A stretch of 64,000 nt of DNA, from NCBI RefSeq assembly GCF_002843385.1, contig NZ_MVDE01000003.1:1-64000 (forward strand), written 5' to 3'. Positions 49,162 through 64,000 of the stretch are shown here, one piece after another. Both the position numbers and the translations under genes were made by a program. Each line of letters opens with the position of its first letter. Within the stretch, counting starts at the first letter, position 1. This DNA is from Labilibaculum manganireducens (lineage in GTDB: Bacteria > Bacteroidota > Bacteroidia > Bacteroidales > Marinifilaceae). The notes below the pieces were generated by a model that saw only the letters and a list, made by a program, of their open reading frames with translations, had not been told where the DNA came from and did no database searches.

Positions 49162-50166
49162 TTATATTAAAACGTCCTTTTCATTATTTGAAAAGTATTT
49201 CATAAACTGCGCTCTTTCATACAAACCAGGATCTTGAATACTGCCATAATTAAGACTGCCGCGAAATTCATCAACAGTTTTAAATCCTTTTTTGGTCATC
49301 CAACTGGTTAAGTCTCCCAATATATTGGTAATTTGATCGAAACCATGCTCATATACAGTAGAACAAATCTGTACTGTTTTAGCACCTGCCAACAATTGCT
49401 TGATTGCAGCCTCGCCATTATGAATACCTGTTGAAGCTGCAATATCAATTCCTTTAATTTTATCAGACAACATACCAACCCAACGAAGAGATTTACGAAT
49501 ATCACTTGCTGAACTCAACACTTCGGCACTGGTAATTTTCATTTTCTCAATATCGATATCCGGCTCATAAAAACGATTAAACAGCACCAATGCATCTGCT
49601 CCGTCAGCATTTAAACGATTAGCAACTGAAAATAAATTGGTAAAGTATATTCCAATTTTCATTGATATTGGAATATTTACTTCCTTTTTAACGGCATTAA
49701 ATATGTCGAAGTATAAATTTTCGTATTGCGCAGAACTCATGTTTCTGTCGTTTGGAACGATAAACACATTTAACTCAATAGCATCGGCTCCGGCTTTTTC
49801 AATTTCTTTAGCAAAAGAAGTCCAATCCGATGAAGAAACACAATTAATACTTGCAATTACAGGAATAGAAACAGCCTTCTTAGCTTCCTTAATAAGTGTC
49901 AAATAATTCGAAACGGAATTTCCTTTGATGTAGGTCTGAATATAATCTTCAGCTTCAGGATAACTTGTATTTGAAGGATCTTTACCAATCAAATTTTTAG
50001 CTTCGTTGCGAATTTGTTCTTCGAATAAAGACTTTAAAACAACAGCTCCTGCCCCTTTTTCTTCAATAATTTTAATTTTTCTTACAGAATTTGTAAGCCC
50101 GGAACTGCTGACAATTAAAGGATTCTTTAACTGCAATCCCATATAGGTGGTTTCAAGATTAATCAT
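49162..50166 (-). CDS. Dihydroorotate dehydrogenase-like flavoprotein
   Basis: A 334-residue protein from the ATG at 50166 (an ATG nine codons earlier is less likely). It has the class 1 dihydroorotate dehydrogenase barrel: TYMGLQLKNPLIVSSSGLTN, IPVIASINCVSSSDW, GADAIELNVFIVPND, ISMKIGIYFTN and the FMN phosphate end AAIKQLLAGAKTVQICSTVY. Several residues typical of true PyrD are changed, notably around the catalytic Cys loop (NVFIVPNDRN), and proteins of this type in Bacteroidota exist in addition to PyrD. The physiological substrate is therefore open. Confidence 0.88.
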   Translation of the reverse strand: MINLETTYMGLQLKNPLIVSSSGLTNSVRKIKIIEEKGAGAVVLKSLFEEQIRNEAKNLIGKDPSNTSYPEAEDYIQTYIKGNSVSNYLTLIKEAKKAVSIPVIASINCVSSSDWTSFAKEIEKAGADAIELNVFIVPNDRNMSSAQYENLYFDIFNAVKKEVNIPISMKIGIYFTNLFSVANRLNADGADALVLFNRFYEPDIDIEKMKITSAEVLSSASDIRKSLRWVGMLSDKIKGIDIAASTGIHNGEAAIKQLLAGAKTVQICSTVYEHGFDQITNILGDLTSWMTKKGFKTVDEFRGSLNYGSIQDPGLYERAQFMKYFSNNEKDVLI

Positions 50167-50273
50167 GCTATTTGATTTTTTAATATTTTTCAATCGATAA
50201 CGAACAAATATAGTAAATTCAAAAGAGATATTTACATCCTTAGTACTGACTTAGCCTATAAAAAACCCAGAAT

Positions 50274-50939
50274 TTAATATCTCGATCCGAATATTGTGCT
50301 TCCTACTCTAATTATTGTACTGCCCTCACTTATTGCCAGCATATAATCACCCGACATTCCCATTGAAATTTCTTTAAATTCAGGACTGTCAATAAAAAAA
50401 TCTGATTTTAAACTTTCAAATATAGATTTAAGATTACCAAACTCATTTCTGATCCGGACTTCATTATTGGTGTATGTGGCCATTCCCATTACGCCGGCAA
50501 TTTGAATCGCTTTTAATGATTTAAAATCCTCCGAAGTAAGCAATTCTTTTGCCTCATCGATAGTAAGACCAAATTTAGTTTCCTCCGAAGCGATATGAAA
50601 TTGCAGCAAGCAACTGATAACTCTGTTATTCTTCTCTGCCTGCTTGTTAATTTCTTTCAGTAATTTAATACTGTCAACAGCATGAATAAGCTGCACGAAC
50701 GGCGCTATATACTTCACCTTATTGGTTTGAAGATGACCAATAAAATGCCATTCTATATCCTTGGGAAGATCGTTATATTTTTGTGCCAGCTCCTGTGGTT
50801 TATTTTCACCAAAAATCCGGTATCCTCCTTCGTAGGCTTCAATTATATCCTCTTTGGGTTTGGTTTTAGATACTGCTACCAATTTTACGTTAGCAGGAAT
50901 TTTCGCTAGAATAGTGTCAATTATTTGAGGTATGCTCAT
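50274..50939 (-). CDS. YggS-type PLP homeostasis protein
   Basis: A 221-residue member of the alanine-racemase-like fold-type III family that binds pyridoxal phosphate and buffers its level in the cell. The PLP Lys is in KLVAVSKTKP (about residue 25). Further family motifs are FGENKPQELAQKY, WHFIGHLQTNKVKYI and GMSGDYMLAISEGSTIIRVG near the end. The size is normal. It is located between the dihydroorotate dehydrogenase-like gene and a two-component pair, all on the minus strand but with gaps of about 70-110 bases. Confidence 0.95.
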   Translation of the reverse strand: MSIPQIIDTILAKIPANVKLVAVSKTKPKEDIIEAYEGGYRIFGENKPQELAQKYNDLPKDIEWHFIGHLQTNKVKYIAPFVQLIHAVDSIKLLKEINKQAEKNNRVISCLLQFHIASEETKFGLTIDEAKELLTSEDFKSLKAIQIAGVMGMATYTNNEVRIRNEFGNLKSIFESLKSDFFIDSPEFKEISMGMSGDYMLAISEGSTIIRVGSTIFGSRY

Positions 50940-51011
50940 GGCAAATTGCAGATTTTAAATTTCAGATTCAAAATTACAACTTTTATGGATTTTGATGTGT
51001 TGTTTGGGATT

Positions 51012-51704
51012 TTAATTATTTTCTGATAAAATAAAACCAACTCCATGCACATTTTCAATTTTTATGGTAGAATCCAATTTTAAGTGCTTCCTTAATTTAG
51101 TGATAAAGACATCCAGGCTGCGTCCCATAAAATAATCATTTTCGCCCCACACATTTACCAGTATATCTTCTCTTCGCAATACATTATTTTTATTCTGAAG
51201 CAAAAGATACAATACATCACCCTCTTTTTGAGTGATCCGAAAAATTTCTCCATTTAAAGTCAAAGTAAGATTTGCATGATCGTATACAAATTTACCCACA
51301 TTAAATATTTGTTCTTTTATTTCAGGTGCTGTATTTACACGCTTTAGCACGGCATTAATTCTTCGGACCAACTCATCCTCATCAAAAGGTTTCGTGATAT
51401 AATCATCTCCTCCCAAATCAAAACCTTTTAACTTATCCTCCTTTAGCGATTTTGCAGTTAAAAAGATAATGGGAATCTCTTGATTAATTTCACGAATCTT
51501 TTTCCCCAAAGTAAAACCATCCATTTTTGGCATCATGCAATCCAATAAACAAAGGTCAAACTTAGAATTAGAGAAAGACTCGAATCCTTTCTCCCCATCT
51601 CGGGCTAAACATACCGAAAAGCCCTCCATTTTTAGAAATTCATTTAAAACAAGACCTAAATTAGGATCATCCTCAACTAGCAATATATTTTTAGAATTGG
51701 TCAT
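51012..51704 (-). CDS. OmpR-family response regulator, RprY-like
   Basis: A 230-residue DNA-binding regulator. The receiver (about 5-120) has acidic residues in LLVEDDPNLG, phospho-acceptor Asp in LLDCMMPKMDGF (about residue 55), and Lys in ITKPFDEDEL. The winged-helix OmpR domain is at about 135-228 (RITQKEGDVLYLLLQNKNNV, RSLDVFITKLRKHLKLDSTI, NVHGVGFIL). It is 9 bases after the kinase gene, so the pair forms an operon, and its length and the partner's layout match RprX/RprY of Bacteroides. Confidence 0.94.
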   Translation of the reverse strand: MTNSKNILLVEDDPNLGLVLNEFLKMEGFSVCLARDGEKGFESFSNSKFDLCLLDCMMPKMDGFTLGKKIREINQEIPIIFLTAKSLKEDKLKGFDLGGDDYITKPFDEDELVRRINAVLKRVNTAPEIKEQIFNVGKFVYDHANLTLTLNGEIFRITQKEGDVLYLLLQNKNNVLRREDILVNVWGENDYFMGRSLDVFITKLRKHLKLDSTIKIENVHGVGFILSENN

Positions 51705-51713
51705 AAAATAATT

Positions 51714-52958
51714 TTAGATTGATGGCAAAACAATAGTAAAGGTACTGCCGGAGTTTCTTTTGCTCAAAACATTTATTGAACCTTTATGAGAATCAATAAT
51801 CATTTTTGAATAGGACAAGCCAATGCCAAAACCTTTCACATCATGCAGGTCGCCGGTTGGAGCTCTGTAATATCTATCGAATACATGCTTCTGTTCCTCT
51901 TTAGTCATTCCAATTCCTTTATCAGTTACCGCAATATAAAGATGTCCATTCGTATTTTTAGTCTCAACTTCTATTTCTGGTTTAGATTCGGAATACTTCA
52001 CTGCATTATCCAGAAGATTTAACAATACATTCTGCAGCAAATCTTTATCACCACAAACCATATCATTTTCCGCATTCAGCTTGTACGCTATGGTTCCTTC
52101 ACGCTCTGCCAATTGCACGGAAATAAAATCGGAACACTCTTTTAACAAGGAGTGCAAATTTATTTGATCTGAATTTAACTGCAATTCTCCGCGTTCCATA
52201 CAAGCCAGTTTTAACAACTGATCTACTTGACTTTTCAAGCGATTATTCTCTGAAAAAATCATGCTTGAATAATGAACTACTTGATTGGGATCGGCATAAA
52301 CCTTATTTCGTTTTAACATTCCACTGGCCAGCGAAATTGTTGCCATCGGTGTCTTAAACTCGTGTGCTATATTATTAATCAGATCAGTAGTTCTACCCAA
52401 AATCTTTTTATCATTTATCAATGAAAAAACGGTTATCCCGAAAAATGTACAAAGAATTAAAATAAGAATTAATGAGCAAATAAACATACTCCCCATACTA
52501 TCCATTAAATTTTTCTCTCTTTTTTGGAAATAGACATTTAATATTGCCTTATCGTGACTTAATGCTTTACGCAAACTATAGTAAAAACATTTACTTTTAG
52601 GCTGCTCGTCAGCAGTACTTAATACTTCAATGGTATATGGCGATTGAATCTGATAATTTTTAAATTGCTGATGAATAATTGAATCCAGGCGGCTCACCTC
52701 CATCTTTAAAAGCTCACTATCCGAAGCATTGTATTTCGATTTAGACATGCACTCCCGCATCTTCTCACAACTCTCCTGATCTTTTGTAAACTCATCGACA
52801 GACTCATGCAAAGCCAAGCCAACACGATGATTGAATTGCTCTTCGTTTAAGCTTCTGGCTCTGCTTATCCATCTAATTTGAATTAAAAGTAGAAGAAGCA
52901 GAACAATTATTGATATAACAATAAATATCTGGATTCTATAAACCTTAAATTTTCGCAT
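51714..52958 (-). CDS. Membrane sensor histidine kinase, RprX-like
   Basis: A 414-residue kinase from the ATG at 52958. Membrane helices are at about 9-29 and 150-173, with a periplasmic sensor of about 120 residues between them holding three Cys (about 63, 69 and 123). The dimerisation domain has the intact phospho-acceptor in NNIAHEFKTPMATIS (about residue 205), and the ATPase domain has LLNLLDNAVKYS, VTDKGIGMTKEEQKHVFDRY and GFGIGLSY. Its partner is the OmpR-type regulator 9 bases downstream. The operon is divergent from a Cys/Lys-rich exported protein, which is a likely regulatory target by position. Confidence 0.94.
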   Translation of the reverse strand: MRKFKVYRIQIFIVISIIVLLLLLLIQIRWISRARSLNEEQFNHRVGLALHESVDEFTKDQESCEKMRECMSKSKYNASDSELLKMEVSRLDSIIHQQFKNYQIQSPYTIEVLSTADEQPKSKCFYYSLRKALSHDKAILNVYFQKREKNLMDSMGSMFICSLILILILCTFFGITVFSLINDKKILGRTTDLINNIAHEFKTPMATISLASGMLKRNKVYADPNQVVHYSSMIFSENNRLKSQVDQLLKLACMERGELQLNSDQINLHSLLKECSDFISVQLAEREGTIAYKLNAENDMVCGDKDLLQNVLLNLLDNAVKYSESKPEIEVETKNTNGHLYIAVTDKGIGMTKEEQKHVFDRYYRAPTGDLHDVKGFGIGLSYSKMIIDSHKGSINVLSKRNSGSTFTIVLPSI

Positions 52959-53065
52959 TGTATTTTTAAACAACAAACTCATAGACTAATACTTCCTTAA
53001 CATCTAGATCTTATGATCTTTTTAACGACTCAAAATTAGTGTAAATTTTAAGAGTTTTTGATGCT

Positions 53066-53081
53066 TTAACAATTCATTAAC
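53066..53081. promoter_or_regulatory. Direct-repeat candidate site for an OmpR-family regulator
   Basis: TTAAC occurs at 53066 and again at 53077, an exact 11-base step (TTAACAATTCATTAAC), as expected for OmpR-type dimers binding side by side. It is in the 210-base region between the two-component operon and the Cys/Lys-rich protein gene. The match is short and the region AT-rich, so chance is possible. Confidence 0.25.
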
Positions 53082-53168
53082 AAGAGATAAAAAGATCTTT
53101 TACGTTCTTGTAGTATTCAATTCAAAATTAAACTAAAACGGATTAATTAACATTTTAATAAAAAAAAC

Positions 53169-53525
53169 ATGAAAAAGTTATTATTTGGACTCTTATTTGT
53201 ATTTGCGATAAATGTAGTAAGTTTTGCTGCTCAACCGGTAATTTCAATCTTTGATAATCAAATTTCTTTGTCTCAGGATCAAGATCAAAAACAGGATCAG
53301 GAGAAGAAAAAAGTTGAAAAGAAAAAATGTGAAAAAGACTGTAAAAAAGCCTGCTGCACCAAAGACGCTAAGGCTGAAAAATGTGATAAGGCAAAAAAAT
53401 GCACAAAGGAAGCTAAAGCAGAAAAATGTGAAAAAGACTGTAAAAAAGCTTGTTGTACTAAAGAAGCCAAGGCAGAAACTAAATGTCCTAAAGACTGCAA
53501 AAAAGAATGTTGTAAGAAATCATAA
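53169..53525 (+). CDS. Exported Cys/Lys-rich repeat protein, metallothionein-like
   Basis: A 118-residue protein with a signal peptide (about 1-20, MKKLLFGLLFVFAINVVSFA) and a short Gln/Asp linker. The remaining 66 residues contain 14 Cys and are mostly Lys, Glu and Ala. A unit KCEKDCKKACCTK followed by D/E-AKAE appears twice in full, with a variant (KCPKDCKKECCKK) at the end. Such Cys spacing (C-x3-C-x3-CC) could bind several metal ions or form many disulphides in the envelope. I know no named family. It is divergent from a RprXY-like pair and has its own terminator. Confidence 0.8.
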   Translation: MKKLLFGLLFVFAINVVSFAAQPVISIFDNQISLSQDQDQKQDQEKKKVEKKKCEKDCKKACCTKDAKAEKCDKAKKCTKEAKAEKCEKDCKKACCTKEAKAETKCPKDCKKECCKKS

Positions 53526-53544
53526 GGATATCTTCTATATCTGC

Positions 53545-53576
53545 AAACCCTTCAATAAAATTGGAGGGTTTTTTTA
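53545..53576 (+). terminator. Rho-independent terminator of the Cys/Lys-rich gene
   Basis: AAACCCTTCAAT and ATTGGAGGGTTT pair with one mismatch around AAA, followed by seven T. Confidence 0.85.
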
Positions 53577-53641
53577 TGCAGTTTGGTACAATTTATGTTC
53601 TTACTTAAGAGTTAATTCAATAGAACGTAAACTGTTTTACA

Positions 53642-54220
53642 ATGAAAAATCTGCTGTTTTTATTTATTGGTGTTTTCGGTTTTTCCGGAGTATTTTCACA
53701 GAATGTAGAAAGATACATGGAATATCATGACAATGGAAGAACTCTGATATTGCAGGGGGAATATGAAAAAGCCATCCTTTACTTAGACACTGCCATTACT
53801 ATTATGCCTTACTATTCCACCATTTTTCAAGATCGCGGATACGCAAAAATGCAGTTAAAAAAATACGACGAAGCAATTCTTGATTTTGACCATGTGCTGA
53901 GTAAAAAACCTTATCTATCGGAAGTACGACTACAAAGAGGCATGGCACTTTACCACCTGAATCGTTTAAACGAATCTGAATCTGACTTAATAGAAGTATT
54001 AAACAGTAATCCAAATAAAAGCCGTGAGGTAATTATTTATCTTGATAACATTCAAAGGGAAAGGGATATAACAGCACAACAAAATTATGATGCGATGTTG
54101 CAATCAATGCGGTTTCAAGTCGAAAATGAACGAATTTACCGGGCCCGCCATCGGGAAGAAGTTATCTGGAATACTGTCGTTCCTTTGGCATTCTGGACTA
54201 CCGTATTTTTAACCTGGTAA
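53642..54220 (+). CDS. Exported TPR protein
   Basis: A 192-residue protein with a signal peptide (ending GVFSQ, residue 20). Three tetratricopeptide repeats run from about 25 to 130: GRTLILQGEYEKAILYLDTA, DRGYAKMQLKKYDEAILDFD and RGMALYHLNRLNESESDLIE. A basic helix follows and then a hydrophobic C-terminus (VVPLAFWTTVFLTW) that could be a membrane tail. It is presumably a periplasmic scaffold; the partner is unknown. Its last 12 bases overlap the end of the converging antiporter gene. Confidence 0.85.
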   Translation: MKNLLFLFIGVFGFSGVFSQNVERYMEYHDNGRTLILQGEYEKAILYLDTAITIMPYYSTIFQDRGYAKMQLKKYDEAILDFDHVLSKKPYLSEVRLQRGMALYHLNRLNESESDLIEVLNSNPNKSREVIIYLDNIQRERDITAQQNYDAMLQSMRFQVENERIYRARHREEVIWNTVVPLAFWTTVFLTW

Positions 54221-56227
54221 ATCCGGATCTGTCTTGATTGACTTTCTTTTTAATGAAATTGATTTTCCCATAAAACGAGCTTTATTATAACCGGGCAAGT
54301 CTGTGTCTTCCATTTTTAAACGAACCTTTTCCAGACTTTCCACAGATCCAACAACAGTTAACACATCACCCAACCGAAGTCGTGTATATCCGGTAGAAAT
54401 TAAGGTGTTATTATTACGTTTGGTAGCCAAAATAATAACATCGGTAGGAATTTGTAAATCCCTTAAAGTGATGCCGTGCAATTCTTTATTTTGCATTTCA
54501 ATGTCCACAGTATCCTGATCTTTTTCCATACCAAGCAACAATGAAGTGGCAATTGGTGATCGCACCAGATGATCCATTAAGCTTACCATTACTGTGGAGG
54601 GTTCAACAATCAGAGCTCCCAACTCGTGAAATTTACTTACATAACTCCTCTCATTTACCCTAACAACAATATCCCTTGTACCAAATTTTTCATAAGCTAA
54701 TTCACAAAATTTAAGATTGTCTTCATCCTGATTCAAGAGCACTATCGCATCCGCATTATCCACTTCAAGTCTCTTTAATTCAACCATACTTAATTCTTTC
54801 ACATGAGTCACATTAACACCATGATACTCTAAATTTGCTCTCTCCTCACTACGGGTTACTAATTTAACCTCCCAGCCATGTTCCTTTAATTGCCGTGCTA
54901 AAGCAAGCGATTGTCCTTCCAGACCAAAAATAATAGCTTTCTGAATTTTGTTTTCATGCAATAGTTCTTTCTTTTTATGACTCTCCCCAACCATTAATAT
55001 AAACCATTTAAAAAGTGGCGGACCACATATCTCATTGAGTACAATAACTCCAATTAATATCGCTCCGAATTGAGGTCCCCAATCGGGATATTTCACTGCC
55101 ACCACAGATACCAATCCAATAGCAACTCCGGCCTGAGTAACATACGGCATCCAAGAAATTCTGTTTACCCTGAAAGGATCACCTCCTAAAGTTCCTCCAA
55201 TAAAAGCGCCAATAGCCATACTGATCAGCCTAATTGCAAAGAACAACAGTGCCACACCCCAGGTTTGAGCCAGGATATCCAAAGAAACTGATGCACCTGT
55301 AAGGGTATAAAAAATAATGTAAATAGTAGGAACAACCAATTCTATAATTTTAACAAACTCCCGGCGGTAACTTCCAAAATTAACAACAACAAAACTTCCA
55401 ATAATACAAATCAACAAAGGTTCAATATACACCCTAAATCCAAGCAAATTTTGACTTTGTTCACCTACCAAATGAGCAAAAAGATAGATACTATATCCTA
55501 TTGCTACCAAAAAAACCGCTTTTTGCATTGTAGTAATTCCGCGAGCCAAAATCCAATTAATAGTTTGCCCCAGCAAAAAACCAATTAAAATTGAAAAACA
55601 TAATTCTCCAATTAGAATAACAATTAACCAAATATCAAACGGAACTTTAGAAATTAAAGCACCTGCGATGGCAAAACATATCGTAAATAAAATGATTACC
55701 AAAACATCCTTTATCACCGTAACCCCAATAGCAGTTTGTGTGTAAGGTCCTTTCGCCCTCATCTCATTAATTACAGCAATTGCAGATGCTGGAGAGCGGG
55801 TAATAAAGATGGTTCCAACCAGCAAGGCAATGGCAAGCTTCACCTGCCAATCGAGTTGTGCCATAAATAACAATCTGGCAGATAAAAAGAATATCGCCAA
55901 CACACTCAAACCAAAGGTGAAAAAAAGTTGACTGAAAGTCATCCATTTGATACTTTTCATCCTGCCTTTTAATTCCTTCAGGTAAAGTTCTGCCCCTGCG
56001 GCAAAAGCGATAAAAGCCAAACATATTTCGTTTATAAAATGCAATTGGGTAATGGCCTTTCGTGGAACAAAATTTAAAATAAAAGGTCCGCAAAGAATTC
56101 CAATGAAAAGAAGACCTGTTATAATGGGTAATTTAACTTTAGGAAAATACCTTGAGATTCTATTTGCAGCAATTGCAACTATCAGAAATCCCACAACTAA
56201 AATAAATATTTCAAGGTAATTATTCAT
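54209..56227 (-). CDS. Kef-type cation:proton antiporter with TrkA domains
   Basis: A 672-residue CPA2-family transporter. About 12 membrane helices occupy residues 1-405, with the motif region RSPASAIAVINEMRAKGPYT in the middle. A Rossmann TrkA-N domain follows (AIIFGLEGQSLALARQLKEH, about 422-440; VDNADAIVLLNQDEDN), and a TrkA-C domain is at about 560-645 (ELHGITLRDLQIPTDVIILA). The nucleotide-binding domains normally gate K+ or Na+ for H+ exchange. It converges with the TPR gene, sharing 12 bases of 3' end. Confidence 0.92.
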   Translation of the reverse strand: MNNYLEIFILVVGFLIVAIAANRISRYFPKVKLPIITGLLFIGILCGPFILNFVPRKAITQLHFINEICLAFIAFAAGAELYLKELKGRMKSIKWMTFSQLFFTFGLSVLAIFFLSARLLFMAQLDWQVKLAIALLVGTIFITRSPASAIAVINEMRAKGPYTQTAIGVTVIKDVLVIILFTICFAIAGALISKVPFDIWLIVILIGELCFSILIGFLLGQTINWILARGITTMQKAVFLVAIGYSIYLFAHLVGEQSQNLLGFRVYIEPLLICIIGSFVVVNFGSYRREFVKIIELVVPTIYIIFYTLTGASVSLDILAQTWGVALLFFAIRLISMAIGAFIGGTLGGDPFRVNRISWMPYVTQAGVAIGLVSVVAVKYPDWGPQFGAILIGVIVLNEICGPPLFKWFILMVGESHKKKELLHENKIQKAIIFGLEGQSLALARQLKEHGWEVKLVTRSEERANLEYHGVNVTHVKELSMVELKRLEVDNADAIVLLNQDEDNLKFCELAYEKFGTRDIVVRVNERSYVSKFHELGALIVEPSTVMVSLMDHLVRSPIATSLLLGMEKDQDTVDIEMQNKELHGITLRDLQIPTDVIILATKRNNNTLISTGYTRLRLGDVLTVVGSVESLEKVRLKMEDTDLPGYNKARFMGKSISLKRKSIKTDPDLPG

Positions 56228-56626
56228 TTAATTCGATTAAGGTTACTTGTATTTATCTTACTTATTCCAATTTTAAGATACAGAATTATATCAATCAAAG
56301 CAACGCAATAAGTTGATTAGCCATTTCTTTGAAAAAATTTGGAATGCCAATTCATTCAAATAATTCTGATTAATGATAAAAACAGGTTCACTATTTTGGT
56401 TCTATTTCACAAACATTTAAATTGTTCATATCCGAACACCAACTGTACGATACCCAACACTATTAAGACTCTGTAAAAATAGCTTAAGCCAACATTACAC
56501 ACTGACATACATACAATTAGGGTTGATGGCACAAATACTGATGTATAAAAAGTGCAAAACCACTGTGATTCGATACGGGTCATAATTCTATTAATAATCA
56601 GACAATTAACTAATTAACCAACTCGA
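56228..56626. other. Divergent intergenic region, no gene seen
   Basis: About 400 bases between the antiporter gene and the metallopeptidase-like gene. I see no small open reading frame with support, no strong hairpin and no clear TTTG/TAnnTTTG pair. Both promoters are presumably here. Confidence 0.4.
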
Positions 56627-57592
56627 ATGAAAAAATATAGTTTTATATGGATTTTCCTGTTTCTAGGCATAGAATTAATGTCCTGTTCATTGAGTATGGC
56701 AGAATCATATGACATTAAAGATATTGAGACTATCCTAAGAGAAACCAAAGCGTTATGTCTTAAGGACAATGGCATGCTTTGGGGAAGAACTCTCGATGTT
56801 CCTATTCTTTTGGTTGATAAAGAAAATGGACGAATCTACTCAAATAACAATAGCAAAAAGTTAGGTTTAGACTCCTATAATGAAATTTACACCGGTATTC
56901 TCCCCAATTTTGTTGATGTGATAAAAGGACCAGCCAAAATCGGCAATCAAATTTGGGCCGTTATCCCACTGCCCTTGCCTGAAGATAAAATTGAAAGACA
57001 ATGTATTATTCTTCATGAAGCTTTTCATTGTGTTCAACCTGAAATGGATTTAAAACCCGAACCTTATAACAACAAACATATGGACGAAATGGAAGCTCGT
57101 TTTTGGTTGAAACTTGAATGGAAAGCTCTTGAGCTGGCTCTGCAAAGTGAAGGGGAAAATAAAAAACAGGCAATTACTGATGCACTCTGTTTTCGCCATT
57201 ACCGCAGAGCTTTGTATGGTAAATGTGACGGCTGTGAAAATCGATTTGAGATTCATGAAGGCATGGCCGAATATACAGCTCAAAAATTATGCAGAAACGA
57301 TAAAGATTTAAAGACATATTTGCAAAATAAGCTGCACTCAATGTGGAAATCTCCATCTTTTGTAAACTGTTTCGCTTATTTTTCCGGTCCCGTTTATGCA
57401 TACCTTCTTGACAAAACGGAAACTAACTGGAGAACACACTTAGGTGCCAAAGATGATATTGCAGCTATAGTTCAATCGGCCTATGAAATATCCTTACCGT
57501 TCGATATTTATATGGAAGCAGAAGAAAGATCAGTGCTTTACAGCGGCGCCCAGATAATGGGCGAAGAATTGGATCGTGAGCTCGCATTATAA
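56627..57592 (+). CDS. Predicted zinc-metallopeptidase-like lipoprotein
   Basis: A 321-residue protein with a lipoprotein-type signal (IELMSC, Cys at residue 20). The mature part has HEAFH at residues 130-134 within CIILHEAFHCVQ, which is an HExxH zinc motif, and a later HEGMAEYTA where Glu211 sits in the E-G-x-A-E-Y pattern that gives the third ligand in gluzincin-type peptidases. Acidic residues in HMDEMEARFWLKLEWKAL lie between them. There is also CDGCENRFEIHEG, with a Cys pair near 200. A secreted or surface protease is therefore a fair prediction, but no family name is recognised. The terminator follows. Confidence 0.75.
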   Translation: MKKYSFIWIFLFLGIELMSCSLSMAESYDIKDIETILRETKALCLKDNGMLWGRTLDVPILLVDKENGRIYSNNNSKKLGLDSYNEIYTGILPNFVDVIKGPAKIGNQIWAVIPLPLPEDKIERQCIILHEAFHCVQPEMDLKPEPYNNKHMDEMEARFWLKLEWKALELALQSEGENKKQAITDALCFRHYRRALYGKCDGCENRFEIHEGMAEYTAQKLCRNDKDLKTYLQNKLHSMWKSPSFVNCFAYFSGPVYAYLLDKTETNWRTHLGAKDDIAAIVQSAYEISLPFDIYMEAEERSVLYSGAQIMGEELDRELAL

Positions 57593-57629
57593 GAATACTT
57601 TATCAAACTTTCAATTAAGAAATCAGATA

Positions 57630-57661
57630 CGGGGCAACTTAATTAAGTTGTCCCGTTTTTT
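57630..57661 (+). terminator. Rho-independent terminator
   Basis: CGGGGCAACTT and AAGTTGTCCCG form a stem with one mismatch around AATT, followed by six T. Confidence 0.88.
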
Positions 57662-57714
57662 CTATTTACTTTGGTTTAGACTTTATGTATCTTTAACTAC
57701 TAAATGAAAATATC

Positions 57715-57975
57715 ATGGATATATTATTGGATCAAGGTTGGAGCGAAATAGACAGTAAATTGGTTAAAAATTATGAATTGCCGAACTTCATTGAAGCAAT
57801 CAATTTTATAAATTTAGTAGCTGCAGAAGCCGAAAATATGGATCATCATCCAGATATCAAACTGTACAATTATAAAAATGTACGCCTAATTTTAACCACC
57901 CACTCCAAAGGTAAAATCACAAAAAAAGACATTGTTCTTGCCAAAAGCATCGACAAAGTTTTTAACTCGATGTAA
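57715..57975 (+). CDS. Pterin-4-alpha-carbinolamine dehydratase
   Basis: An 86-residue PCD/PhhB/DCoH-type protein. The family motif is seen as AAEAENMDHHPDIKLYNYKN (about residues 36-55), with the His pair and Pro-Asp of the active site, followed by LTTHSKGKITKKDIVLAKSID. In organisms with phenylalanine hydroxylase it regenerates tetrahydrobiopterin; many bacteria have it without that enzyme, where it may serve molybdopterin or pterin repair. It ends five bases before the end of pheA on the other strand. Confidence 0.92.
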   Translation: MDILLDQGWSEIDSKLVKNYELPNFIEAINFINLVAAEAENMDHHPDIKLYNYKNVRLILTTHSKGKITKKDIVLAKSIDKVFNSM

Positions 57976-57980
57976 GTCTT

Positions 57981-58820
57981 TTAAGTGATCACAATACCTT
58001 TGTTGTAAGTACCCAATACTTTCATTCCTTTCGTATAAGCTGATATTTTATCCAACGCATCCCTAAACTGCCGGGGTCCCTGAAATTCCAAATCGACATG
58101 AAAAAAGTACTGCCAGTTGATACCGGGAATTGGCAGAGATTGAATCTTCGAAAGATTAATGTTCTCCTTGGCAAAACAATCCAAAATATAAGACAAGCTC
58201 CCCGCTTTATGACTGGTACTAAAATATAATGATGCTTTATTGTATCCTCCGTTTGGAACAACATCTTTCTGTCTCTTTAAAAGAAAAAACCGGGTTTGAT
58301 TGTCTTTTATGCTTTCAATTTCCTCAGCTATAATTTCCAAGCCATACAATTCTGCCGGATAATCACCGGCAATAGCTCCCACACCCATCAATTGATTGTC
58401 TCTTACATTCTTAGCACTTAAGGCCGTATCCTCCATTTCCACCAATTTAATATCTGGATAATCGTGAAAGAAAGCACGACACTGATGAATTGCCATTGGA
58501 TGGGAATGAACTTCTTTTAAATCTTCAATTTTCTGCCCGGGCAAAGCCATTAAATTTTGCTTGATTCTCAGAAATATCTCCCCTTCGATTACAAGACCGG
58601 AATCCTGAAGGAGCCCGTAATTCTGCAGAATACTTCCGGCAATAGAGTTTTCAATCGCCATAATTCCTCCATCGCATACTGATTCGTCTTGAATCAATTC
58701 AACAAGTGTGGCGAAATTACCGGCAGGAATAATTTCAACATCTTCTCCGTAATAAGCATTAGCTGCCAAATGGTGAAAACACCCCTCAACTCCTTGAATA
58801 ACAATTTTTCTTTTCTCCAT
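57981..58820 (-). CDS. pheA: Prephenate dehydratase with ACT domain
   Basis: The enzyme converts prephenate to phenylpyruvate, the committed step to phenylalanine. The 279-residue protein from the ATG at 58820 has the catalytic domain at about 1-180, beginning KIVIQGVEGCFHHLAANAYYG, with DGGIMAIENSIAGSI and the DNQTRFFLLKR motif that carries the catalytic Thr. The ACT regulatory domain (about 190-275) has NLSKIQSLPIPGINWQYFF, matching the ESRP-type Phe-binding site, so feedback inhibition is likely. There is no chorismate mutase domain. Upstream lie two candidate Phe leader/attenuator modules, which implies additional control at transcription. Confidence 0.96.
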   Translation of the reverse strand: MEKRKIVIQGVEGCFHHLAANAYYGEDVEIIPAGNFATLVELIQDESVCDGGIMAIENSIAGSILQNYGLLQDSGLVIEGEIFLRIKQNLMALPGQKIEDLKEVHSHPMAIHQCRAFFHDYPDIKLVEMEDTALSAKNVRDNQLMGVGAIAGDYPAELYGLEIIAEEIESIKDNQTRFFLLKRQKDVVPNGGYNKASLYFSTSHKAGSLSYILDCFAKENINLSKIQSLPIPGINWQYFFHVDLEFQGPRQFRDALDKISAYTKGMKVLGTYNKGIVIT

Positions 58821-58844
58821 GGTTATAGTTAGATTTTGTATCAC

Positions 58845-58875
58845 AAAAAAGAGTCCCAATTAATCAGGACTCTTT
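58845..58875 (-). terminator. pheA-proximal attenuator terminator
   Basis: On the minus strand AAAGAGTCC (58875-58867) and GGACTCTTT (58856-58848) form a 9-bp stem with a 10-base loop, followed by six T. It lies after the leader ORF at 58893-58973 and 25 bases before the pheA start, so it would stop transcription before pheA unless disrupted. Confidence 0.85.
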
Positions 58876-58892
58876 GTAAATAATATTATATT

Positions 58893-58973
58893 TTATTTCA
58901 TTAGAATCCTGTTCCTCTCTCCGTTAAAAAAGAAAAAAATAAAAAACCAATTATTAAAAAATACTGTTTTCAT
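58893..58973 (-). CDS. Phe leader peptide of pheA (proximal)
   Basis: A 26-codon reading frame starting ATG AAA ACA GTA, with eight Phe codons: pairs at codons 5-6 and 10-11, and four in a row at 13-16, plus one Trp at codon 9. It ends with TAA at 58893, 18 bases before the terminator stem. The length, Phe bias and position match amino-acid leader peptides such as E. coli pheL. No Shine-Dalgarno is visible, as usual in this phylum. Confidence 0.75.
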   Translation of the reverse strand: MKTVFFNNWFFIFFFFNGERNRILMK

Positions 58974-59007
58974 TCGTAATTATTTTAAGTTTTTGCCATA
59001 TAGCCTG

Positions 59008-59026
59008 TCCCGAACTTGTTTCGGGA
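59008..59026. repeat. Short palindrome of REP type
   Basis: TCCCGAACTTGTTTCGGGA is an inverted repeat (TCCCGAA / TTCGGGA, loop CTTGT). Palindromes of this type are scattered between genes in many Bacteroidota. It lies between the two pheA leader modules, in the transcribed region if transcription starts upstream. Confidence 0.5.
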
Positions 59027-59096
59027 GAACTTACCATGCTGGAATAATCTTTTCCTGTGTTTCAAAATCGCTTTGACATGGACGTTTCATATAGTC

Positions 59097-59123
59097 AAAA
59101 AAAAAGAGCCCTTACAGAGGCTC
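59097..59123 (-). terminator. pheA-distal attenuator terminator
   Basis: On the minus strand GAGCC (59123-59119) and GGCTC (59110-59106) form a GC-rich stem around an 8-base loop, followed by nine T (59105-59097). It comes 32 bases after the upstream leader ORF. Confidence 0.7.
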
Positions 59124-59154
59124 ATCATCAATTAAATAGTACGTGAATCCTCTT

Positions 59155-59208
59155 CTAACAACAGCTGCTAAAAAAGAAAAATCGCCCGATATGGATATTG
59201 TTATTCAT
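59155..59208 (-). CDS. Phe leader peptide of pheA (distal)
   Basis: A 17-codon reading frame: ATG at 59208, then codons for NNNIHIGR, four Phe in a row (codons 10-13, TTT TTC TTT TTT), Ser-Ser, Cys-Cys and a TAG stop. AGAGG (59153-59149), just after the stop, can pair with CCTCT in the terminator arm (59120-59116), a weaker antiterminator than in the proximal module. Position about 40 bases after a candidate promoter start fits a leader peptide. Confidence 0.6.
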   Translation of the reverse strand: MNNNIHIGRFFFFSSCC

Positions 59209-59252
59209 ATTTTCTGTACTAATTCCTTCCAAAGGTAAAAAAATATTTCATA

Positions 59253-59283
59253 CAACCTTACAATTATCATTCTCATGCACAAA
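59253..59283 (-). promoter_or_regulatory. Candidate pheA promoter
   Basis: On the minus strand TTTG (59283-59280) lies 19 bases before TAAGGTTG (59260-59253), which differs at one position from the Bacteroidota -7 box TAnnTTTG. Transcription from it would begin near 59247, upstream of both leader ORFs. Confidence 0.4.
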
Positions 59284-59450
59284 GTTGTGCTGTTAAACCA
59301 CTCAATTTTACCTTATGCTGTCTGGTAATTCTTCTCAACCCCTGCTATCCTCTTGCAAACCTAAATTTTAACAGATCAATAACAAGTAAGCCTGTACTTT
59401 TTCAACGAATAGTAGTATATTTAATACTTCGATGTCTTTATATATAGAAA

Positions 59451-59945
59451 ATGAAATTTAGATACCAGTTATTACTACTTAGCTCACTTATTATTTCAAT
59501 AAAATCAGTGAGCGCTCAGGAAATTAAATCCCATAATTTTAATGAATTAGAACCTATTCTCCATTATCAGAATGATACCACCTACGTGATTAACTTTTGG
59601 GCGATGTGGTGCAAACCATGCGTTGAAGAACTCCCCGAATTTGAAGATATCCGTAAAGACTATACAGATAAAAAGGTGAAAGTAATACTGGTCAGTCTCG
59701 ATTTTGGAAAAAATACAGAAGATCGCTTACTCGGCTTTTTAAAGAAAAAGAATATAAATGCTGAAGTTGTTTTGCTTGATGATCCGGATGCAAACAGCTG
59801 GATTGGAAAAGTGGATAAAAACTGGGATGGTGCTCTTCCTGCAACTCTTATTTATAGAAAAGATGAAAGAATAGTTTTCACCCGCCAGATTTCGTACGAC
59901 AAATTGGCGGACTCAATTGATAAATTAAATAATCAACCGAATTAA
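59451..59945 (+). CDS. TlpA-like exported thioredoxin
   Basis: A 164-residue periplasmic thioredoxin-fold protein with a signal peptide ending VSAQ (residue 23). The redox motif is WCKPC in NFWAMWCKPCVEELPEF (about residues 50-66), and the cis-Pro region is DGALPATLIYRK. It probably acts as a thiol oxidoreductase in the periplasm, as do TlpA/ResA proteins. It precedes another thioredoxin-fold gene by 11 bases, forming a two-gene unit. It is divergent from pheA. Confidence 0.92.
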   Translation: MKFRYQLLLLSSLIISIKSVSAQEIKSHNFNELEPILHYQNDTTYVINFWAMWCKPCVEELPEFEDIRKDYTDKKVKVILVSLDFGKNTEDRLLGFLKKKNINAEVVLLDDPDANSWIGKVDKNWDGALPATLIYRKDERIVFTRQISYDKLADSIDKLNNQPN

Positions 59946-59956
59946 AATTTATAATT

Positions 59957-60556
59957 ATGAAGAAAGTATTGATTCTTGGCCTTTTTATATTGGCCGCAAT
60001 GGGAATACAAGCTCAAGGCTACCAGATAGGTGACAAGGCGAAAGATTTTAAACTGAAAAATGTTGATGGAAAACAGATTTCGCTCGCCGATTACAAGGAT
60101 GCCAAAGGATTCATTGTGATTTTCACATGCAATCATTGTCCGTATGCTGTAGCTTATGAAGATCGAATTATCGAAATTGACAAAAAATACAAGGAAAAAG
60201 GATTCCCTGTAATTGCGATCAATCCAAACGATCCGGAATTGTATGAAAGCGATTCTTTTGACAATATGATTGTACGGGCTAAGGAAAAAAGATTTACATT
60301 CCCTTATTTGATGGATGAAACACAGGAAGTATTTAAGAGATTTGGAGCGACCAAAACTCCTCACGTTTTTATCTTAAGCAATAATAGCGAAGAATACACC
60401 GTGGAATATATTGGTGCGATCGATAACAATTACAAAGACGAAACTCAGGTTACAAGTACATATGTTGAAGATGCTTTAGATGCACTCTTACAAAATAAAA
60501 AGCCGGAAATTACTTCGACAAAAGCAATTGGTTGTGGAATTAAAACCAAAGGATAA
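59957..60556 (+). CDS. Exported AhpC/TSA-type thioredoxin-fold protein
   Basis: A 199-residue protein with a signal peptide ending GIQAQ (residue 20). The fold is peroxiredoxin-like (GDKAKDFKLKNVDGKQISLA), with a CNHC motif in IFTCNHCPYAVAYEDRI (about residues 56-72) and the ATKTPHVFILSNN cis-Pro strand. A CNHC-bearing subgroup is common in Bacteroidota and annotated only as a thioredoxin-family protein. It is the second gene of the unit after the TlpA-like protein. Confidence 0.9.
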   Translation: MKKVLILGLFILAAMGIQAQGYQIGDKAKDFKLKNVDGKQISLADYKDAKGFIVIFTCNHCPYAVAYEDRIIEIDKKYKEKGFPVIAINPNDPELYESDSFDNMIVRAKEKRFTFPYLMDETQEVFKRFGATKTPHVFILSNNSEEYTVEYIGAIDNNYKDETQVTSTYVEDALDALLQNKKPEITSTKAIGCGIKTKG

Positions 60557-60569
60557 GAATCATCAAGGA

Positions 60570-60603
60570 AAAGATCCGGGTATCAAATGATGCCCGGATC
60601 TTT
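60570..60603 (+). terminator. Hairpin terminator
   Basis: AAAGATCCGGG and CCCGGATCTTT form an 11-bp stem with a 12-base loop. The T run is short, so strength is moderate. Confidence 0.7.
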
Positions 60604-60646
60604 ACTAAAATTCAATTACATTCTAATCTGTGGATTTGAATCCTGT

Positions 60647-61594
60647 TTATTCGGCAATTTTTAAAGAGAGCTTTCCAACCACCCTACCCGTTTCACTGTA
60701 CTGATGAGCTTTGGCAACATCCATTAAATCGTAGGATTTATCGATGTAAGTTTTTAAAAGACCTGCATCAACAAAATCAGCCAATAATTCGAGATCTGCC
60801 TTATTTTCCTGTACAAAGATCTTCTTCATTTTTTTGGAACTAAGCAGGTTATGAACAGACCCGAGCAAAAGAATGTTGAAAGAAGGGAGAGTTGTCACAA
60901 AAATTCCTCCCCGCTGCAAAATGTGTTTTACTTTTGAATATTCCTGATTTCCTACCACATCGAAAAAAATGTCGTACTCTTCCTGAAGCGAAACAATATC
61001 CTGTTTGATATAGTCAACAACCCGGTCAGCACCTAAATCTTTTGCAAACTGCACATTTCTGCTGCTGCAAACTCCTGTAACTTCACAGCCATAAGCTTTT
61101 GCAATTTGAACTGCAAAAGACCCAACACCTCCCGAGCAACCATTCACCATTACATTCATTCCTTTCCGAATTCCACCCATATCCCGAAGTGCCTGCAAAG
61201 CTGTTAATCCTGCCAAAGGCAAAGTGGCAGCCTCTTCAAAATTCATATTTTGCGGTTTTAATGCCAGATGGCTTGCTGTGGTAGCAACATATTCAGCATA
61301 CGCACCATTCTTAGTAATATCAATTTTCCCAAACACCTCGTCGCCAACCCGAAAAAACTGTACTTTTTTGCCGATTTCGACCACCCGTCCGGCTATATCA
61401 CCTCCTAAAATACAGGGTAGTTTCTTTCTCATGAATAGTCTTAAGCTGCCTTTACGGATTTTCCAATCGACCGGATTTACTGATGAAGCATAAACCTCAA
61501 CCAAAACCTCTGTGTCATTTATCTGCGGACGGGAAAGATTGGCAATCTCCAAAACATCCGGCGTCCCGTATTTTTTCATTACTACCGCTTTCAT
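60647..61594 (-). CDS. Zinc-independent MDR oxidoreductase (quinone-reductase-like)
   Basis: A 315-residue medium-chain dehydrogenase/reductase, taken from the ATG at 61594 that gives the usual start MKAVVMKKYGTPDVLEI; a more distal ATG 17 codons upstream adds residues the family lacks. The catalytic-domain motif is VNPVDWKIRKGSL, and the NADPH-binding motif is NGCSGGVGSFAVQIAKAYG (about 135-153). There are no Cys/His zinc ligands, so the quinone oxidoreductase branch fits. The substrate is unknown. It is a single-gene unit. Confidence 0.9.
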   Translation of the reverse strand: MKAVVMKKYGTPDVLEIANLSRPQINDTEVLVEVYASSVNPVDWKIRKGSLRLFMRKKLPCILGGDIAGRVVEIGKKVQFFRVGDEVFGKIDITKNGAYAEYVATTASHLALKPQNMNFEEAATLPLAGLTALQALRDMGGIRKGMNVMVNGCSGGVGSFAVQIAKAYGCEVTGVCSSRNVQFAKDLGADRVVDYIKQDIVSLQEEYDIFFDVVGNQEYSKVKHILQRGGIFVTTLPSFNILLLGSVHNLLSSKKMKKIFVQENKADLELLADFVDAGLLKTYIDKSYDLMDVAKAHQYSETGRVVGKLSLKIAE

Positions 61595-61770
61595 CTGTCT
61601 AAATTTGTTTAAAGATGTCACATGGAACTCCCAAATTACACTCATTCTCCTGTGTGTAATACTTTTTACATGGTTGTTTCACATCCTAAAAGTTTAATGA
61701 TACAAAACTCTCATAATGAATTTCTTGTACATAAATCAAGTTACAACAAGTTTCCAATATTTTCAAAATA

Positions 61771-61796
61771 AAAAGGCTTACCCTTAAGGATAAGCC
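61771..61796 (-). terminator. Rho-independent terminator of the nitroreductase gene
   Basis: GGCTTACCC (61775-61783) and GGATAAGCC (61788-61796) form a stem with one mismatch around TTAA. On the minus strand it is followed by TTTTTATTTT. Confidence 0.8.
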
Positions 61797-61818
61797 CAGT
61801 CTGTATTCCAAATACATT

Positions 61819-62391
61819 TTATTTCATATCGTCCCAATCGCCATCAAACAGAATTTTATCCAAAGAGCGCCGCTCCCTTTTACTCGATTCCATTTCCCTG
61901 ATATTTTCGGGCAATTGCATTGGATCACCTATATAACCAACAGCAATCATTGTTACAATATCAAAATCGAAAGGAATTTCAAACATCTCCCGGGCCTTTT
62001 CAGCACTAAAACCAGCCATTTGATGCATATATAACCCCATACCCGTTGCTTGAACAGACATGTTTCCAATGGCCAAACCCAAATCATGACGTGCATGATG
62101 ATTCTCTTTTTGACTCTGAGCAAACTTTTTTGAAGCCAGTGTCAAAATAATCATAGGTGCAGTTTTTACCCACATCTGATTAAACTCTACCAAACAAGAC
62201 ATCAGTTGATCATACCGCTCCGGATAATCCTTTGTTGCATAAATAAACCGCCAAGGCTGTTCGTTAAAACAAGACGCGGCAAATGATGCTGCCTCGAATA
62301 ATTTTTCAATCTTGGTTGGTTCAATTTCCTGATCCGAAAAGGCTCTTGGACTCCATCGTTTATCAATCAATTCATGAATTTTCGCACTCAT
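61819..62391 (-). CDS. Nitroreductase family FMN protein
   Basis: A 190-residue nitroreductase-fold protein. The FMN-binding N-terminal segment is KRWSPRAFSDQEI, and AASFAASCFNEQPWRFIYA follows. The C-terminal part has LAIGNMSVQATGMGLYMHQM and FDIVTMIAVGYIGDP, typical of the family. Such proteins use NAD(P)H to reduce nitro compounds, quinones or flavins; the natural substrate is not clear. It is divergent from the membrane phosphoesterase gene. Confidence 0.93.
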   Translation of the reverse strand: MSAKIHELIDKRWSPRAFSDQEIEPTKIEKLFEAASFAASCFNEQPWRFIYATKDYPERYDQLMSCLVEFNQMWVKTAPMIILTLASKKFAQSQKENHHARHDLGLAIGNMSVQATGMGLYMHQMAGFSAEKAREMFEIPFDFDIVTMIAVGYIGDPMQLPENIREMESSKRERRSLDKILFDGDWDDMK

Positions 62392-62532
62392 TGCTCTATA
62401 GGTTTGTAGTGAATAAATGTCCTGACATCAGTAAAACCGGGATACTGAAGTAGGTTTTAGTGATGGGGTTATAATGCTTTGAAGATAAGCATATTTTAAC
62501 AAAAATTAAGGACTTGCTTGTATTTTATTGTC

Positions 62533-62540
62533 TATATTTG
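62533..62540 (+). promoter_or_regulatory. -7 box candidate for the phosphoesterase gene
   Basis: TATATTTG fits TAnnTTTG exactly, 40 bases before the start codon of the phosphoesterase gene. No TTTG lies at the matching -33 position, so only half the promoter is supported. Confidence 0.35.
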
Positions 62541-62580
62541 AGGCTATTTAATAATCAATGAACCACTTATAAAAACTTGG

Positions 62581-63846
62581 ATGAAAGCAAGTGTATATTT
62601 ATTGATTCCTCTGTTACTATTTATGCTGTTGGTAGATATTTATACCTACCGTGGCGTGAAACCTCTGATTGCCCGAATAAAATATTCGCTGGCAAGACAA
62701 TCATTAACCATGCTGTTTTGGGGTATTTCCGTTTTAATTTTTGCTGGTTTTGTCCTGTTTATATTCGGGATCAAGCATGTGCGGCAATCTGAAGCCTACA
62801 TCTATGTTGGATATCTGGTAGCTGGTTTTTCATTGTTTTACATTCCAAAGTTTGTATTTATACTTTTCGTTCTGTTAAAAGATATACTAGGGGCGATTGC
62901 AGGAATCATTAATTGGTTCGGGGAGAGAAAGAAAAAGAGTGTACCACAATTTAATTCGAAGAGAAAAATGGAGAGATCCGAGTTTTTATATCAAATGGGA
63001 TTGGTTTTAGCAGCCATCCCGTTTGCATCCATATTGTATGGAGTAACCAAAGGGAAATTTAACTACAGGGTAATGCGCGAAAAGATCGGTTTCGATCACC
63101 TTCCCAAATCATTTAAAGGACTGAAAATCGTTCAAATATCAGACATGCACCTGGGCAGTTTCAATAAGAATTTTGAGAAAATTGCCAAGGCTGTTGAACT
63201 GATCAACGAACAGGAACCGGACCTGATTCTATTCACAGGCGATTTGGTAAATAACTTTGCGGAAGAAACAGAAGGATGGGCTCCTATACTATCCAAAATG
63301 AATGCTAAAATTGGAAAATATTCCATCATGGGAAATCACGACTACGGTGATTATTCGTACTGGAAATCTTCTGGCGACAAAGCTGAAAATTTACAGGCAA
63401 TTAAGGATTTCCATAAAGATATGGGCTTTAAGCTGCTTTTAAATGAATCGGAAACCATATCAGTAAACGGGGAAGAAATTGCACTGCTTGGTGTCGAAAA
63501 TTGGGGCAAACCTCCTTTTCCGCAACACGGCGACTTACAAAAAGCAATCAACGGATCAGCCAATATCCCCTTTAAAATTCTGATGAGTCACGATCCTTCG
63601 CATTGGGATGCGCAGGTTTTGGATACGGATATCGCCCTTACCTTCTCGGGTCATACGCATGGCATGCAGTTTGGACTCGAACGGGCTGGCATAAAATGGA
63701 GTCCGGTGCAGTACAAATATCCTCGCTGGGGCGGATTGTATCAGCAAGGAGATCAATACCTTTATGTGAACCGCGGCTTTGGTTACATCGGATTCCCCGG
63801 CCGGATTGGTATGCCTCCGGAAATTACGTTGGTGGAACTGGCCTAA
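62581..63846 (+). CDS. Membrane-anchored metallophosphoesterase (YkuE-like)
   Basis: A 421-residue protein. The first 145 residues contain three or four membrane helices (YLLIPLLLFMLLVDIYTY; LTMLFWGISVLIFAGFVLF; FSLFYIPKFVFILFVLL). The calcineurin-like domain starts near 175 and shows all five metal motifs: QISDMHLGSF, FTGDLVNN, GNHDYGDY, LMSHDPSHW and SGHTHGMQF. It is most similar in layout to YkuE/YpbG-type phosphoesterases, which act on lipids or nucleotides at the membrane. It is a single-gene unit ending near a terminator. Confidence 0.93.
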   Translation: MKASVYLLIPLLLFMLLVDIYTYRGVKPLIARIKYSLARQSLTMLFWGISVLIFAGFVLFIFGIKHVRQSEAYIYVGYLVAGFSLFYIPKFVFILFVLLKDILGAIAGIINWFGERKKKSVPQFNSKRKMERSEFLYQMGLVLAAIPFASILYGVTKGKFNYRVMREKIGFDHLPKSFKGLKIVQISDMHLGSFNKNFEKIAKAVELINEQEPDLILFTGDLVNNFAEETEGWAPILSKMNAKIGKYSIMGNHDYGDYSYWKSSGDKAENLQAIKDFHKDMGFKLLLNESETISVNGEEIALLGVENWGKPPFPQHGDLQKAINGSANIPFKILMSHDPSHWDAQVLDTDIALTFSGHTHGMQFGLERAGIKWSPVQYKYPRWGGLYQQGDQYLYVNRGFGYIGFPGRIGMPPEITLVELA

Positions 63847-63904
63847 TTAAAAGCTGGCTGATGCTAACACATCTAATTTTAATGAGATTCTAAAATTATA
63901 CATG

Positions 63905-63935
63905 AGGATTCGCACTGTGCGTATCCTTTTTTTAT
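63905..63935 (+). terminator. Rho-independent terminator of the phosphoesterase gene
   Basis: AGGAT-T-CGCA and TGCG-T-ATCCT pair with one mismatch and a three-base loop, followed by seven T. Confidence 0.75.
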
Positions 63936-64000
63936 TCCACACCTCAACCTTGGCTGAAGAATACCACACAGGCATTCTGTTTTTGGGCAACTGTTAACTG

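Follow-up and report, generated by a model that had tools for sequence, protein, structure and literature searches.

Computational analysis indicates that the pheA gene of Labilibaculum manganireducens is very probably under the control of two ribosome-mediated transcription attenuators that lie in series on one leader RNA. The window, a stretch of 64,000 nucleotides from contig NZ_MVDE01000003.1, was earlier described as carrying a single attenuator at pheA. The reported features are confirmed, but they make up half of the predicted system, and the upstream attenuator, attenuator 1, was overlooked. Attenuator 1 spans 59208-59097 on the minus strand and is a second Phe attenuator, complete in its predicted parts. 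The features of both gates are collected in Table 1.

Table 1. Predicted features of the pheA leader, listed in the direction of transcription
Feature	Position	Strand	Details	Basis
Predicted -7 promoter box	59230..59237	minus	TACCTTTG, Bacteroidota type (TAnnTTTG)	consensus match
Leader peptide 1	59155..59208	minus	MNNNIHIGRFFFFSSCC, four Phe in a row	ORF reading, alignment
Segment 2 of attenuator 1 (antiterminator arm)	59145..59153	minus	just past the leader stop	alignment pairing
Terminator 1 (helix 3:4)	59097..59123 including T run	minus	59123-59106, nine T	terminator scan, z -3.3
Palindrome between the gates	59008..59026	minus	TCCCGAAACAAGTTCGGGA	CCCGAA-loop-TTCGGG in 3/15 loci
Leader peptide 2	58893..58973	minus	MKTVFFNNWFFIFFFFNGERNRILMK followed by the stop codon; 26 codons, 8 Phe	ORF reading
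Segment 2 of attenuator 2 (antiterminator arm)	58903..58911	minus	CAGGATTCT, inside the leader ORF	alignment pairing
Segment 3 of attenuator 2	58865..58873	minus	AGAGTCCTG, common to antiterminator and terminator	alignment pairing
Terminator 2 (helix 3:4)	58845..58875	minus	58875-58848, T run to 58845	terminator scan, folding energy
pheA, prephenate dehydratase	57984..58820	minus		Pfam PF00800 PDT 2.7e-50

The preliminary description named a short ORF of 26 codons, eight of them for Phe, a terminator that ends in a T run, a 9-bp antiterminator pairing between the leader end and the terminator, and pheA directly downstream; all four are present. The pairing of CAGGATTCT with AGAGTCCTG comprises nine pairs, one of which is U-G, and 24 nt separate the T run of terminator 2 from the pheA ATG at 58820. 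The product is a prephenate dehydratase by PF00800; the NCBIfam prephenate dehydratase models match it under their cut-offs, and no chorismate mutase domain is seen in it by Pfam and NCBIfam profile searches. By PheA, the nearest named relative is L. euxinus, at 99% identity. The genes aspC, tyrA, and aroF are absent behind pheA in the window. The next gene converges on pheA, and the gene on the other side of the leader (59451-59945) diverges from it; pheA therefore forms a unit of one gene behind a long leader. The convergent gene (57715-57975) encodes a pterin-4a-carbinolamine dehydratase (PF01329), a partner enzyme of phenylalanine hydroxylase. Elsewhere in the window, at 53169-53525, the C-terminal part of a 118-aa ORF is rich in Lys/Cys and repeated, with a 57-nt repeat at 53323/53422 in the DNA.

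The leader is 34% T, and its Phe codons could be an accident of T-rich DNA ahead of plain terminators or a metabolite riboswitch. This explanation is scarcely credible. The best ATG ORF of the 409-nt leader region has eight Phe in 12 codons, while among 5000 dinucleotide shuffles of that region none reaches eight and one reaches seven; the Phe run is therefore not a by-product of T-rich DNA. The upstream gene diverges, which leaves the two terminators without another evident transcript to end. Tyr codons join the leaders where tyr genes join the operon, and other operons of the genome have Trp, His, and Ile/Val leaders. Rfam at gathering score gives no match in 50000-64000, which leaves some room for an undescribed element. 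A permissive search of the leader gives seven weak matches, all under the cut-offs and including PyrR and Phe_leader; RF01859 Phe_leader scores 21.1 bits against a gathering score of 55 (E 0.44). A terminator scan of both strands finds two sites where 0.3 are expected, both on the pheA strand, and the folding energy of terminator 2 has a z of -4.3.

The arrangement recurs in the 15 loci of the Labilibaculum/Marinifilum type (L001-L007 and L009-L016; L008 is cut off and was left out). Alignment with these relatives, proposed earlier as a check, finds the Phe runs and hairpins conserved. Both terminators and a leader 1 with ATG are present in 15/15 loci, and a leader 2 with ATG in 14/15. The remaining locus, L006 (a match to L. 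filiforme), has ATA for ATG in leader 2 (2440-2500, minus) and keeps the Phe run. Among 14 aligned copies of leader 2, five of the eight majority-Phe columns are invariant and three change amino acid in some rows. The other 17 columns, without start and stop, comprise two that are invariant, two with synonymous changes only, and 13 with amino-acid changes.

The promoter box follows the Bacteroidota consensus TAnnTTTG (PMC9723704) and lies 28-32 nt ahead of leader 1 in 15/15 loci. Between leaders 1 and 2, no such box occurs in any of the 15. The same holds from leader 2 to pheA, so that a transcription start downstream of the terminator, which the earlier account held to be contrary to attenuation, is not predicted at any of these loci. 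Since the only promoter box stands upstream of gate 1, both gates lie in series on one predicted transcript in 15/15 loci. A sigma-70 scan yields two promoter-like sites where chance alone predicts 3.0, and the promoter was placed by the Bacteroidota box instead. The ORFs MIIVRLYEIFFYL and MKYFFTFGRN were rejected as leader 1, as they overlap or precede the promoter box. ORFs of this type are the detector's leader 1 in several Labilibaculum loci, and the aligned leader 1 was used in their place. In ten loci the two leaders are spaced 116-121 nt apart, and in the other five 206-329 nt. The spacer palindrome is seen in L001, L002, and L004 only, and with 3/15 spacers carrying it, it may be a small mobile repeat.

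Among the relatives, the run of gate 1 contains 4-5 Phe, and gate 2 contains 7-10 Phe in all. The short run of leader 1 would suit a reading in which only the pheA-proximal attenuator works and the upstream unit is a relic or part of a separate short RNA. The longer spacer in five loci and the automatic choice of another gate 1 ORF in several loci point the same way. Such a reading is improbable, however, because leader 1, antiterminator 1 (120/120 cells), and terminator 1 are conserved, the sole promoter box lies ahead of gate 1, and similar series stand before the tyr and ilv operons. The unequal Phe numbers also bear on a refinement of the two-gate reading, not a full rival to it, in which the gates differ in sensitivity and gate 1 opens on other conditions than gate 2. 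This is possible but rather unlikely, as both runs consist of Phe.

The RNA alignments comprise L001-L016 in part and the named Marinifilum loci L039 and L040, with n = 14 for attenuator 2 and n = 15 for attenuator 1. In attenuator 2 (n = 14), 97.6% of the antiterminator cells are paired, versus no more than 54% in slid controls, and 99.2% of the terminator cells, versus no more than 62%. Antiterminator 1 is paired in 120/120 cells (n = 15), against a slid maximum of 70.8%. At both gates, the antiterminator and the terminator have one arm in common and are mutually exclusive in sequence potential. The parts, their conservation, these exclusive pairings, and the single promoter box are read from the sequence itself. 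Covarying pairs, which the preliminary description proposed to look for in relatives, are sparse. Antiterminator 2 has one compensatory cell (reached by 80/500 shuffles), antiterminator 1 has three cells changed on both sides from G-C to A-U (41/500), and terminator 2 has two compensatory cells (2/500). The antiterminator stretches alone have z values of -0.3 and -0.7 versus shuffles; the first of them was truncated within the arm. When the fold begins past the Phe run and the 3' arm of the terminator is removed, the antiterminator forms in 30/30 attenuators of the 15 loci. With that arm included, the lower-energy fold is the antiterminator or the terminator, depending on the locus.

When the fold begins at the leader start, a 1:2 hairpin is predicted in 30/30 attenuators, with 3-8 of the eight antiterminator-arm bases paired upstream. 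As a fixed helix with the Phe-codon run, this protector is paired in 95.2% of cells for leader 1 (slid maximum 69.8%) and in 93.3% for leader 2 (slid maximum 79.0%). The shuffle z values of the protector folds are modest, at -1.1 and -1.4. The leader 1 protector has zero covariation, with shuffles equal to the observed value. The leader 2 protector has seven compensatory cells at one pair, splitting the sequences seven to seven, and these are probably one shared change. Given the modest z values and the scant covariation, the protector 1:2 is the least certain of the helices. In seven Marinifilum-type rows, the two ends of leader 2 also pair with each other in 35/35 cells, with two compensatory pairs (5/500 shuffles), in a helix picked after folding. 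The classical set of helices 1:2, 2:3, and 3:4 is thus predicted twice, with 1:2 the weakest.

The geometry of both gates suits a translating ribosome. At gate 2, the last Phe codon of the run lies 14 nt from the antiterminator arm, and the arm 7 nt from the stop codon; at gate 1, the last Phe codon lies 16 nt from the arm and the stop codon 1 nt. By these coordinates and the usual ribosome footprint, a ribosome at the stop codon covers segment 2 and a stalled one leaves it free. Transcription would start just downstream of 59230, and at each gate a ribosome would translate the short Phe-rich leader. With ample Phe-tRNA, the ribosome would reach the stop codon and cover segment 2, the terminator 3:4 would form, and RNA polymerase would leave. 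With charged Phe-tRNA in short supply, it would stall on the Phe codons, and segment 2 would be free to pair with segment 3, so that the polymerase continues. If no ribosome is present, the Phe-codon run may pair with segment 2 as the protector 1:2, and termination would again be favoured. Only polymerases past both gates would reach pheA, and since both must be passed, the fold-changes should multiply. The start site, leader translation, stalling, termination efficiency, and the multiplication are inferred. Sparse covariation, unexceptional helix energies, the ATA of L006, and the 13/120 loci without a unit (see below) are counted against the two-gate reading.

The survey of pheA loci drew on genomes matched by a PheA search at 1e-30, namely 35/56 genomes in the family and 182/392 in the order; of the further order matches, 67 were taken, about one per genus. 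From 151 loci with a PheA match, 120 were kept. Eighteen named duplicates or outsiders (L031-L048) and four loci with cut or unclear starts (L008, L054, L154, and L162) were dropped, and nine further loci were swapped for longer copies. An ATG ORF with at least six Phe/Tyr in 12 codons lies within 400 nt in 109/120 loci, whereas 2400 shuffles give 4.6 per 120. Of 190 amino-acid pairs, Phe/Tyr ranks first over the 120 loci, with a mean of 8.11, and the next pair has 6.32. A unit of leader and terminator is called in 107/120 loci, with a score of at least 6 in 104/120, and is absent in 13/120. The 379 control genes have a unit in two cases and a score of at least 6 in one; they are other ORFs of at least 200 codons from the window, L031-L047, and L118-L184, and many lie inside operons. 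The one control unit scoring at least 6, MRNFNLAYYFFFFFSSKHQHSDS, is possibly a genuine leader.

The 16 pheA loci that do not reach score 6 are of several kinds. L028, L138, L144, L155, and L173 have a good ATG leader without a terminator call, L118, L164, and L169 have a Phe/Tyr run without ATG, L147 and L181 score 5, and L006 has ATA in place of ATG. Nothing clear is seen in L128, L163, L175, L176, and L180. Two units are called in 37/120 loci, and both score at least 6 in 23/120. In several Labilibaculum loci the automatic call takes a wrong ORF for gate 1; it also overlooks gate 2 of L006, and its result for L139 is doubtful. On the PheA tree, one versus two units requires at least 12 changes, with L006 and L139 set by hand. 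Outside Bacteroidales, a Phe/Tyr leader and terminator precede pheA in L045 (a Calditrichota bin) and L046 (Zunongwangia).

The codons of the called leaders follow the operon content. They are Phe-only or nearly so where pheA stands alone, and Phe plus Tyr where it heads a Phe/Tyr operon. In 99 loci, pheA has aspC, tyrA, or aroF behind it (L175 via a weak aspC match only), and 89 of these have a unit. In all 89, the run of the pheA-proximal leader includes Tyr, with a single Tyr in two. In 21 loci, pheA is alone, and a unit is called in 18 and in none of L163, L176, and L180. No Tyr occurs in 15/18 of these leaders; L009 and L010 have one Tyr and seven Phe, and L006 is a wrong pick. On the PheA tree, Phe-only leaders require four changes of state, one each in the Labilibaculum/Marinifilum group, L147, L151, and L167, each with pheA alone; the coding was done by hand, and L006, L009, L010, and L015 were counted as Phe-only. 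A sign test on independent pairs gives 3/3 (p 0.25), which is too few pairs, so the match rests on the four state changes and on a Fisher test (p 1e-15) that ignores relatedness. A foreign origin of the Labilibaculum/Marinifilum pheA was considered, and the position of the group on the PheA tree stands on weak forks. At the level of sequence, the earlier claim of Phe attenuation before pheA is well borne out by the leader ORF, the terminator, the exclusive antiterminator, the ribosome geometry, the conservation, and the codon match over 120 loci.

Other amino-acid operons of the genome have related candidate leaders. In 15/15 genomes of the Labilibaculum/Marinifilum group, tyrA is present away from pheA, and in the 4/4 loci read (L185-L188), aspC-tyrA-aroF is preceded by two leaders with Phe and Tyr codons. 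The genome's own aspC-tyrA-aroF (L185:300-980) has two predicted serial attenuators with the leaders MKSFSTFFYYFWYFYYPQR and MNNSGLAFRYYYFYFWHNNNRAGCLIPNFK, and L186, L187, and L188 have such a series too. The first leader of this operon starts with MKSFS, MKTFS, or MKTVT. It resembles MKSFSFAYYFYYYFFSRR, the first leader of L190, a relative in which the operon is unsplit; this likeness suggests that the leader pair of the ancestor remained with the aspC-tyrA-aroF half. The genome's own ilvD (L200) has two serial candidate Ile/Val/Leu-rich leaders, each with a terminator. Among its ilvD locus and those of 18 relatives, both leaders and both terminators are present in 10/19; in L204, L206, and L215 both terminators are present but the second leader alone is called, and six other loci have one unit or unclear units. 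Candidate single attenuators with one terminator each precede trpE (L198; leader MIGMNSKYWWWHIYKLSKSEQR, WWW) and hisG (L117; leader MKFTAIHHHHHYTYQPVS, HHHHH). A Phe leader was looked for before the genome's own pheS and none was seen, and upstream of thrA an open frame runs to the locus edge. On balance, there is a modest preference for a broader reading, in which serial double leader-peptide attenuation is a standing architecture of the lineage for Phe, Tyr, and branched-chain operons and multiplies the response. The gate codons would then have been re-matched to the products of each half once the ancestral Phe/Tyr operon split.

Leader-peptide attenuation is textbook knowledge, pheA included, and the E. 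coli pheA leader is a classical ribosome-mediated attenuator. To our knowledge, the textbook attenuators of this kind come singly. The predicted gates share with the E. coli pheA leader and RF01859 a Phe-rich leader peptide, an arm common to antiterminator and terminator, a predicted protector, and a prephenate dehydratase gene behind. In contrast, there are two predicted serial gates here and the Phe codons themselves would be segment 1; the chorismate mutase domain, not seen in the Labilibaculum pheA, also differs from E. coli. Tandem riboswitches and tandem T-boxes likewise repeat the same sensor along a single leader, but their sensor binds a metabolite or a tRNA, whereas at the pheA gates it would be the translating ribosome.

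In Flavobacteriaceae, structured 5' elements precede pheA and hisG, and 'strong clues' point to attenuation by leader peptides at amino-acid operons (PMC9723704). The gene and the phylum are the same and attenuation is suspected for amino-acid operons in both cases, but the sequence, codons, and any tandem structure of that pheA element are not given in the available part of the source. The earlier remark that the attenuator was unannotated is fair for the pheA locus, but attenuation in Bacteroidota had already been suspected (PMC9723704). Short ORFs reminiscent of leader peptides occur in B. thetaiotaomicron (PMC7366714). In 2010, leader-peptide systems were stated, to the knowledge of the authors concerned, not to have been shown outside Proteobacteria and Actinobacteria (PMC2965389). 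Certain Mg2+ transporters have tandem attenuators, also two per 5' region, which answer diverse signals as that source describes them (PMC4974804), whereas both pheA gates carry the same amino acid. The ermB gene likewise has two leader peptides ahead of one gene, but its attenuation is translational and responds to an antibiotic (PMC8274638), not to amino-acid supply as proposed for the pheA gates. The rimP leader of several Gammaproteobacteria has two serial terminators in one 5' region, without amino-acid-specific leader peptides as described (PMC2965389).

Serial leader-peptide attenuators for amino-acid operons were not found in the open-licence literature searched, and an earlier description may exist. 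Lopatovskaya et al. 2010 may list attenuators of Bacteroidota. What appears to be new is the predicted pair of gates in series, the return of such series at other operons, and the match of codons to operon.

Among the loci sampled, Phe/Tyr leaders are usual before pheA in Bacteroidales. Because leader codons track the content of the operon, they offer a simple tool to predict the product of an uncharacterised operon. The conserved series of two at the phe, tyr, and ilv operons is a natural system for the question of why a single gate does not suffice. A larger fold-change, a lower leak, and a graded response are possible gains from the second gate.
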